This document shows positions 1 to 2,120 of a stretch of DNA of 32,263 bases, in pieces (positions within the stretch are counted from its first letter, which is position 1; every line of letters begins with the position of its first letter). The position numbers and the translations under genes were made by a program. The stretch comes from Beijerinckiaceae bacterium (GTDB lineage: Bacteria; Pseudomonadota; Alphaproteobacteria; Rhizobiales; Beijerinckiaceae). The notes under the pieces were generated by a model. The model did not search any database and had not been told where the DNA came from. It saw nothing but the letters and a program-made list of their open reading frames with translations. The DNA is taken from assembly GCA_031291515.1 (NCBI GenBank), contig JARLIW010000249.1:1-32263 (forward strand). Reading direction: 5' to 3'.

Positions 1-1157
1 AGAGGCCGCTGCGGATTGTTCAACGCACTGATCTGCTTTTGGTACGCTATAGATCGAGGAGAAGCCCTGTTTGGAACGTCCAAGCTGGGGTCCGGGCATA
101 ATTTTGGGTTGTTATCGTTCGCGGCAGGGGCCGCCACAGGCGCCTTGTCATCGTTGTCATCCGCCGCGTCGATCTGATCTTGATCGAAGGTAAGGACACC
201 GCCGAGATCCCGTGCAAAGGGAAAGCCGGTATTAAAATCATAAAAGACCCCATTGCGATCCCGCAGGCCGGCCGCGATGACGACAGGCGTGCCGCCTGTT
301 GTGTCGATCAGGCGTAACGAGCCGTCCTCCCGATTGAATTCGTAACGGGTTCCCGATTTACCGGGAAGAACGCCGCTCGACGAATCCGAATGCTGATAGG
401 GGACAAAAAGGAGCCCGAGGACCGCGGCCGCGCCAACGACGCCAACGATGGCTCCGGCAAATTCCGCCAACGCGGCGAGCCGCGCCGCCTCTTCCGCAGC
501 CTCGAATAGCGCAGGAACGGACGTAGCCGGCGCAAGCGCCTGCCACGAAACCGGCGGTGACGCCGCTTCCGGGCTGCCGGCGACGGGAACGGCCTCGGGA
601 GGGCGCGGTCCGCGCGCTGGCGGTTTCGCTGCTTCCGCGCTTTGCCCGCCTCCCCCGCCGCTGGTCCAACGCCCGCTTTCACCTCCGTTTCCAACGGGGA
701 CACGCGGCTGATCGGGGTTATAATCGCGAACCAGCGTCTCCGGCGGCTCGAGATCTAGCTCCCTGAGCAAGGCCCGGGCGGGCATGCCGCCCGACAAGAG
801 CTTGTCCGCCAAATCGAGCCGCAGTCCTATTTGGGCAGGCTCTGGAATATAGGTGAGCCGCGCCATCGCCAGGCGAATGTTGGCCTGAACGTAATCGCCC
901 CGGCGCGAATGGGCCGCGGCCACCTCGATGTGCCGCAACAAATGTGGCGCGAGCTTCTTCCGGAAGGCCAGAGCGAGCAGCGCGTCGAGACGGTCGCTCG
1001 CCACTCGATCATCCACGGTCTGGTCGAGCGCCGTGAGCGGATGCTGTGCAATGACGCGTCCGCCCAGCGTTAGCCCCGCCTCGGAGAAATACAAGGCATT
1101 GGCCGGGAATACCGGTGGCGCAATGCGCGAGCGCCGGGAAAATAAGTCGTTTTTCAA
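1..1157 (-). CDS. Partial (3' end off window) polymorphic-toxin-like protein with a C-terminal Tox-REase-5-like domain start
   Basis: Manual translation of the minus strand (codon starts = 2 mod 3) is open from a TTG at 1157 (GAGG about 5 nt upstream) to the window edge, about 385 codons. Contains pre-toxin-like linker YNPDQPRVPVGNGGESGRWT, a hydrophobic segment FAGAIVGVVGAAAVLGLLFV, and ends LCPDPSLDVPNRASPRSIAYQKQISALNNPQRP, resembling the N-terminus of Tox-REase-5 domains. Absent from the ORF track because it has no stop in the window. Confidence 0.65.
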   Translation of the reverse strand, partial: MKNDLFSRRSRIAPPVFPANALYFSEAGLTLGGRVIAQHPLTALDQTVDDRVASDRLDALLALAFRKKLAPHLLRHIEVAAAHSRRGDYVQANIRLAMARLTYIPEPAQIGLRLDLADKLLSGGMPARALLRELDLEPPETLVRDYNPDQPRVPVGNGGESGRWTSGGGGGQSAEAAKPPARGPRPPEAVPVAGSPEAASPPVSWQALAPATSVPALFEAAEEAARLAALAEFAGAIVGVVGAAAVLGLLFVPYQHSDSSSGVLPGKSGTRYEFNREDGSLRLIDTTGGTPVVIAAGLRDRNGVFYDFNTGFPFARDLGGVLTFDQDQIDAADDNDDKAPVAAPAANDNNPKLCPDPSLDVPNRASPRSIAYQKQISALNNPQRP

Positions 1158-1292
1158 ACCAACCTCGCAGCCCTTACCGAAGCCACGAGATTACGCTCGA
1201 TCATGAAAAACGCCTATACCACGGCAACGAATGCCGCCGGACAGGTTTGCGCGTGCGTTATGTCCGATCCGCGCCGCGAGCCAAGCGACCCC

Positions 1293-2120
1293 TCAATGCC
1301 GCCAAAAAACCATCTGGCCGATGGTCAGCAGGATTTCGGCGACGATCAGGATAACCACGGTGGTTTCCAGCCGCGTCGCCCGGTCCGCGTCGATGATATC
1401 GGTGAGGGCCCGGGCGGTTTCGGCGATCACGTCGAGCTTGCGCTTGAGGGTTTGCGCGCGTTCCTTGAGCTCGTATTCGTCTTCGAGCCGGGCGTAGAGG
1501 CGTTCGAGATCGGGGCGGTCCCACAGCACGTCGGGCTTTTCTTCGACCGCGACGCGGCCGGAGAGGCGGTGCTGCACCAGCAGCGTCTGGCCGATCAGCT
1601 TCAGCATCGAGCGCCGCCGCCACGGCGGGCGGCCTTTTTCGAACAGCTGCGCGGCGAAGGGCTCGATCTCGTCGAACACGGCATTGACTTCATGCTCGTC
1701 GCGACCGAGCGAGACGGTCTTCGCCAAGGCATCGGCGACCACGAGCAGCCGCGCGGGCGAAAGGTCGCGCAAATGAATCGTGCCGCCTGCGGGAATCCGG
1801 TCCTCGTTCTCGGCGGAAATGTCGATGTGCGCGATCTCGTCGTCGACATGCTCGTGCTGGCCCGAAACGCGGAGCTTCACCTGGTTGAGGACCTCGTCCT
1901 CCTCGAGCGGCGAAAGGCCGACGAACACCGCGACGCCAAAGCGGTACAGCGCGACAAAGCCCGAGGCGCCGGCGTTGAAGGCGAGCGGGTTCGAGGACAG
2001 CATGTCCGAGCGCTCGAGGCCGGAAGCGTCGATTCGGTCTCCCAGCAGCAGCGCGCGCGCCGTCACGCGGCGGTAGGGCTGAGCCTCGATGAGGGCGGGT
2101 GTCTGGTCAAGCAAGGTCAT
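1293..2120 (-). CDS. RMD1/YagE family (DUF155) protein
   Basis: 275 aa ORF; C-terminal ERLYARLEDEYELKERAQTLKRKLDVIAETARALTDIIDADRATRLETTVVILIVAEILLTI followed by a terminal hydrophobic segment, typical of the RMD1/DUF155 family. Confidence 0.85.
   Translation of the reverse strand: MTLLDQTPALIEAQPYRRVTARALLLGDRIDASGLERSDMLSSNPLAFNAGASGFVALYRFGVAVFVGLSPLEEDEVLNQVKLRVSGQHEHVDDEIAHIDISAENEDRIPAGGTIHLRDLSPARLLVVADALAKTVSLGRDEHEVNAVFDEIEPFAAQLFEKGRPPWRRRSMLKLIGQTLLVQHRLSGRVAVEEKPDVLWDRPDLERLYARLEDEYELKERAQTLKRKLDVIAETARALTDIIDADRATRLETTVVILIVAEILLTIGQMVFWRH

Follow-up and report, generated by a model that had tools for sequence, protein, structure and literature searches.

The left end of the window, our name for the whole 32,263-nucleotide stretch of DNA under study (contig JARLIW010000249.1 of assembly GCA_031291515.1, from a Beijerinckiaceae bacterium), carries a minus-strand gene that very probably encodes a polymorphic toxin of the Tox-REase-5 type and is cut short by the contig end. 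Sequence comparison among its relatives demonstrates a common domain order, swapping of C-termini and pairing with predicted Imm52 immunity genes. How such a toxin would reach its target is a more tentative matter, for which we consider delivery by particles resembling phages or gene transfer agents (GTAs).

A truncated toxin gene at a contig end

The frame runs on the minus strand from a TTG at 1157-1155 to position 3, spanning 385 codons with zero stops. An earlier note, made from the letters alone, had described a frame of about this length starting at TTG 1157 and continuing past the window start, and the open reading frame, base shuffles and homologues all confirm it. Measured from stop to stop, the opening begins at 1190 and extends for 396 codons, a length reached in none of 1000 base shuffles of positions 1-1200 (99th percentile, 268; maximum, 392). 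Homologues were present in 10 of the 41 genomes searched, the bacterium's own included, and this homology (best E elsewhere, 7e-61) identifies the frame as a real gene. Because window position 1 is also base 1 of its contig (C37, one of 334 in the assembly) and thus a true contig end, the toxin gene is truncated and its continuation is missing from that contig.

The encoded protein opens with a folded N-terminal domain of ~145 amino acids (hereafter the carrier domain), to which the linker YNPDQPRVPVGNGGESGRWT is attached; a spacer, a hydrophobic segment and a beta region then lead to the start of Tox-REase-5 (Table 1). The N-terminus had been called basic and helical; helices are indeed predicted, but an AlphaFold model built on a 37-row alignment gives a compact domain in which three strands precede about six helices, with predicted local distance difference test (pLDDT) scores mostly of 85-95 at residues 21-140. 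Other elements suggested at the outset held up: the pre-toxin linker recurs across relatives, the Ala/Gly-rich, transmembrane-like segment coincides with a Kyte-Doolittle peak of 2.48 at residues 234-252, and the stretch CPDPS...AYQKQISALNNPQRP lines up with the beginning of the Tox-REase-5 domain of intact relatives. Scans of the truncated protein against Pfam, NCBIfam and PHROG gave no match, and sequence searches of the PDB returned weak, unconvincing matches only.

Table 1 Features of the truncated toxin gene and its upstream flank (window coordinates)
Feature	Position	Strand	Evidence
Polymorphic toxin gene with its TTG start at 1157, cut off by the contig end	3..1157	-	Open frame, homologues, contig edge
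Beginning of Tox-REase-5, PKLCPDPS...AYQKQISALNNPQRP; catalytic part missing	3..113	-	Equivalent stretch leads into and opens the PF15648 match of L004 and L060
Beta-rich pre-toxin region (GVLPGKSGTRYEF...GVLTFDQDQID)	162..374	-	Alignment and model of relative L060
Hydrophobic Ala/Gly-rich, membrane-like segment, residues 234-252	402..458	-	Hydropathy; position kept in Tox-REase-5-bearing relatives
Spacer rich in Gly, Pro and Ala	513..662	-	Sequence
Linker YNPDQPRVPVGNGGESGRWT, residues 146-165, also found in fusions to portal, protease and MuF proteins of phages and GTAs	663..722	-	Sequence comparison
N-terminal (carrier/adaptor) domain, residues about 20-145, three strands ahead of the helices, family-wide	723..1100	-	37-row alignment, AlphaFold
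GAGG, Shine-Dalgarno-like, 5 bases 5' of the TTG	1163..1166	-	Sequence
Upstream neighbour, RMND1/Sif2-like DUF155 protein, outside the toxin system	1293..2120	-	PF02582, E 9e-34

Relatives supply the Tox-REase-5 domain and its Imm52 partner

Only about 16 residues of Tox-REase-5 fall within the window, and Pfam reports no PF15648 match there. The relative L004 aligns as far as the last residue of the window protein at 40% identity, with the closing AYQKQISALNNPQRP identical in both, and continues beyond that point into a region where the motif DGTMIEAKGPGY occurs; its PF15648 match (E 0.027) scored below the cut-off. The next gene, beginning at the stop of the L004 toxin, matches Imm52 (PF15579, E 5e-13), and the same order of toxin followed by Imm52 occurs in L005, L013 and L014. 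A further relative with the window's domain order, L292, matched PF15648 above the cut-off (E 2e-12) and is likewise adjoined by Imm52, which also lies directly downstream in L301, while L060 scored below the cut-off (E 2e-4). Across the family alignment, four members matched Tox-REase-5 (best E, 1e-12). The D..C/FDG, E-x-K, Q and W positions are conserved in the toxin part of the relatives, in agreement with the features listed for this domain by Zhang et al. (E-x-K, D..C, Q and W; PMC3482391).

A model of the toxin part was of low confidence (mean pLDDT, 58), and we therefore retained only its match to TseT-TsiT (7dym), which is consistent with the sequence evidence and had the highest Foldseek probability among the matches listed (0.93, with an E of 0.45). 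The Tox-REase-5 core and Imm52 gene of the window copy are predicted from relatives that align with it end to end, and its toxicity is likewise a prediction.

One N-terminus carries exchangeable C-termini

C-termini of the Tox-REase-5, NucA/B and RNase A types, as well as unannotated ones, are found behind a common N-terminus and linker, and it is this joining of a conserved N-terminus to differing C-termini that marks the family as polymorphic toxins. In a tandem pair of genes from the complete genome G012, the DNA is 86.7% identical over the first 632 bp with no match beyond, and one of the two genes terminates in a NucA/NucB DNase. Elsewhere the C-terminus is a CdiA-type RNase A (L304). Altogether, six family members lie scattered along the G012 chromosome, one of which (L050:4081-5034) has PGQPRDDHGRFASG at the linker instead of PRVPAG. 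QPRDEDGRWT stands at the linker in L290:44-712, and a second linker form may be common. A repeated N-terminus of ~85 amino acids, followed by the linker and a long, related, unannotated C-terminus, was seen in Phyllobacterium (L091, L093, L094 and L096-L098).

The window's own genome (G000; assembly 88% complete) holds Imm52 genes on contigs C185 (two), C282, C110 and C160, the last two cut by contig edges (C110:3-632 and C160:2-133). On C282 and at the C160 edge, Imm52 occurs without a toxin. A paralogue on C185 (L042:807-3338) is broken across two frames, reflecting either decay or an assembly error, and has two different Imm52 genes after it. On C174 (L045:7707-8762), a carrier-domain piece that includes the linker precedes a gene resembling barstar (PF01337, E 5e-6).

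The linker is fused to head proteins of phages and GTA-like clusters

A single-sequence query of genome contigs found no relatives and a broader alignment proved too variable as a query, whereas an alignment of the N-terminus, applied to named genomes, returned 49 loci. Among these, the linker follows several unrelated N-termini. At L080 it stands after a portal protein whose gene is preceded by a terminase-like gene and followed by ones resembling prohead protease and capsid genes. This connection with particle genes had not been raised in the earlier note. Across 248 genomes of the bacterial family, several linker matches were located on long frames 5-15 kb from matches to GTA_TIM; we call such clusters GTA-like on the basis of GTA_TIM and gene order, and they could be GTAs or prophages.

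Within one GTA-like cluster (L137:2735-4582), a portal protein (PF04860, 8e-85) is joined through the linker to a CdiA-type RNase A (PF18431, 6e-13), and the same portal-linker-RNase A arrangement (PF04860 and PF18431) recurs at L142:1923-3983 and L139:5196-7712. Upstream of a GTA_TIM gene on the same contig, a prohead protease (PF04586, 2e-32) takes the place of the portal (L132:211-1812, G121:C11; PF18431, 1e-15). Small genes with a weak-E likeness to CdiI_2 adjoin these portal and protease fusions, including that of L137. At L134:952-7010 (G249:C9), three cassettes of portal tail, linker and toxin are arrayed in tandem with small genes between them, a layout of orphan toxin cassettes that looks like a supply of spare toxin tips with which a portal could be fitted. 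Similar tandem arrays, in which partial portal tails bear the linker and C-termini that differ, were also seen at L133, L136 and L163. In Afipia/Bradyrhizobiaceae (L082, L084, L086, L087 and L089), repeated RWLRPDA-like N-termini with the linker directly follow a GTA-like capsid gene and are possibly another carrier domain.

Viral contigs contained at least 120 stretches of one form of the linker and 35 of another. Among 68 linker-bearing proteins with long N-termini from these contigs, 28 matched Phage_portal, with further matches to Portal_Mu (3), Phage_portal_3 (2), Peptidase_S78 (2) and Phage_Mu_F (2). Toxin-like tails of the linker proteins included RNase A types, ADP-ribosyltransferases, Zeta, CdiA_C and PemK.

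The carrier domain itself occurs in particle gene clusters

Genes with the window's own carrier domain were also found among head genes. The L304 region encodes, in this order, a terminase, a ClpP-like protein, a carrier-domain RNase A toxin, a small protein, Imm52 (2e-15) and a portal. Here the carrier domain, the closest to the window's in the tree set (40%), sits between TerL and portal, and its toxin is of the type that also rides on GTA portals. That the toxin has its own small gene together with an unrelated Imm52 (L304:4759-7307) suggests a past toxin swap that left the old immunity gene behind. L301 comprises GTA_TIM (7e-99), a carrier-domain gene and Imm52 (2e-23), in that order. Methylocapsa sp. 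S129 (L317/L318) encodes a terminase, portal, protease, carrier-domain toxin, capsid, tape and GTA_TIM, followed by a second carrier-domain gene and Imm52, and L292 was likewise counted among the window-domain genes within particle clusters.

In the less biased genome collection, head or tail genes occurred in the fetched flanks of 5 of 28 carrier-domain loci; under a rough, simple model, 0.2 would be expected and the chance of this result is about 5e-7. Such a cluster is present in the window's own genome: on C110, genes for TerL, portal, protease, capsid, tape and GTA_TIM are accompanied by tail-like genes farther downstream, and the contig opens with a toxin part and Imm52, located 17 kb upstream of TerL.

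Weighing the route of delivery

A combined explanation, to which we assign a little less than an even chance, is that the gene encodes an antibacterial polymorphic toxin delivered by phage-like or GTA-like particles. The conserved N-terminal domain and linker would serve as the carrier, and on the most likely route the carrier domain would dock the toxin inside phage-like or GTA-like particle heads, much as the same linker would where it is fused to portal, prohead protease or MuF proteins. The toxin would then enter a recipient along with the packaged DNA, the hydrophobic and beta regions probably assisting the final entry step. In recipients without Imm52, the C-terminal Tox-REase-5 nuclease would cut nucleic acid, and kin holding the immunity gene would be spared.

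Several observations weigh against delivery by particles. The window gene is surrounded by housekeeping genes, with neither a head-gene cluster nor a fusion to a head protein, and because it stands alone in this way we can only infer that particles deliver it. Most of its closer relatives also lie outside particle clusters within the flanks seen, and most cluster-embedded members group apart from its neighbourhood in the tree, L304 being the exception; the window copy is the most divergent family member (end branch, 2.11), and this long branch makes its placement unsure. The carrier domain had no structural match in the PDB or among viral models (best E, 0.45) and resembles no known capsid-internal fold, and IMG/VR, by design, over-represents viral genes. 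At the level of whole genomes, presence of the family tracks neither the type VI secretion system (T6SS) nor GTA_TIM. Counts tallied by hand from presence/absence searches and then tested placed a T6SS in 6 of 25 carriers of the toxin family versus 60 of 248 genomes overall, which is the level expected by chance, and GTA_TIM in 19 of 25 versus 191 of 248, a marker so widespread that its co-occurrence is uninformative.

These T6SS counts bear on the idea that the protein is a T6SS cargo effector resembling TseT of Pseudomonas aeruginosa. In its favour, TseT ranks as the most probable analogue of the toxin model among solved structures, and the T6SS often delivers Tox-REase-5 toxins (PMC3482391); nonetheless, VipA (PF05591) was not found in the window's own genome (assembly 88% complete), G001, G002, G012 or G024, and its absence from complete carriers such as G012 makes the route unlikely. 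The window protein also had no Pfam match to the PAAR, VgrG or Hcp families. With VipA not found in most carriers, we rejected the T6SS as the carrier on presence/absence and regard this explanation as very improbable.

A stand-alone contact or secretion effector is a considerably stronger contender, though one we would not bet on. Here a Tox-REase-5 toxin with its Imm52 would be exported by a type IV or type I secretion system, an extracellular contractile injection system or another machinery, with no role for particles, and the carrier domain would be an export signal borrowed by phage-like elements. The solitary position of the window gene and most close relatives fits this account, as do the hydrophobic segment and the dispersal of the six G012 members over the chromosome. 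It has to contend with the lack of VipA in the five genomes named above, with a carrier domain and linker that lie in head-gene clusters and a linker that is fused to head proteins; moreover, we noticed no gene of a secretion system next to the members whose surroundings were read, systems besides the T6SS not having been searched for. Finally, the window gene may be a decaying relic, an orphan copy without a working toxin that is neutrally kept or lost, as the frame-broken C185 paralogue could be. Stops in other members, the divergence of the window copy and its unseen continuation are compatible with decay, but the 385 intact codons free of stops, with the family linker and domain order retained, make it rather improbable.

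Relation to known systems and implications

In the order of domain and immunity gene among relatives, and in the E-x-K, D..C and W positions, the family resembles the Tox-REase-5/Imm52 pairs (PF15648/PF15579) of Zhang et al. 2012 (PMC3482391), the window holding the first residues of the domain. Unlike the toxins described there, its carrier is an undescribed N-terminal domain with a PRVPAG linker, in place of RHS, filamentous haemagglutinin or PAAR. By fold, the toxin part finds its most probable analogue in TseT-TsiT (PDB 7dym, 9oz0), albeit with weak statistics, but the latter is delivered by the T6SS and has no N-terminus or linker in common with the window protein.

The closest parallels for head packaging come from phages. 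MuF toxins of temperate phages (Jamet et al. 2017, PMC5576092) similarly combine toxin C-termini and adjoining small genes with head-region proteins, although the window protein lacks a MuF domain (PF04233 and PF06152, by Pfam and PHROG), its relatives occur in GTA-like clusters and the linker is also found on portals and prohead proteases; the term 'gene transfer agent' is absent from the text of that study. Phage enzymes fused to portal, MuF or capsid-processing peptidase have been read as packaged in the head, injected and thought to counter host defence (PMC9503650). The enzymes there are fused to the same three head proteins, whereas here we find toxin-immunity pairs, tandem spare cassettes and GTA-like clusters. 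Because both MuF toxins (PMC5576092) and head-fused phage enzymes (PMC9503650) are known, head packaging is a sound reading.

We found no report in the open-licence literature that connects GTAs with polymorphic toxins, immunity proteins or kin discrimination, or that describes the adaptor domain or the linker sequence. GTAs are usually viewed as selfless donors of random DNA, and the upkeep of so costly a trait is an old question. As a broader and more speculative proposal, GTAs and related particles of Hyphomicrobiales may carry polymorphic toxins in their heads, with the PRVPAG linker attaching interchangeable modules to the portal, the protease or the adaptor domain; immunity genes within the clusters and tandem spare cassettes would make DNA transfer favour kin and poison others, and the window gene would be dispersed cargo of this system.

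For the window gene itself, which lacked any Pfam, PHROG or NCBIfam match, the analysis provides a family assignment together with a probable type of toxin and a probable partner for immunity, and the linker offers a simple sequence handle for finding such fusions. If the broader proposal is true, virus-like DNA-carrying particles may deliver poison along with genes, and toxin-carrying GTA heads that immune kin survive would be kin-selective weapons, making the question of their upkeep testable.
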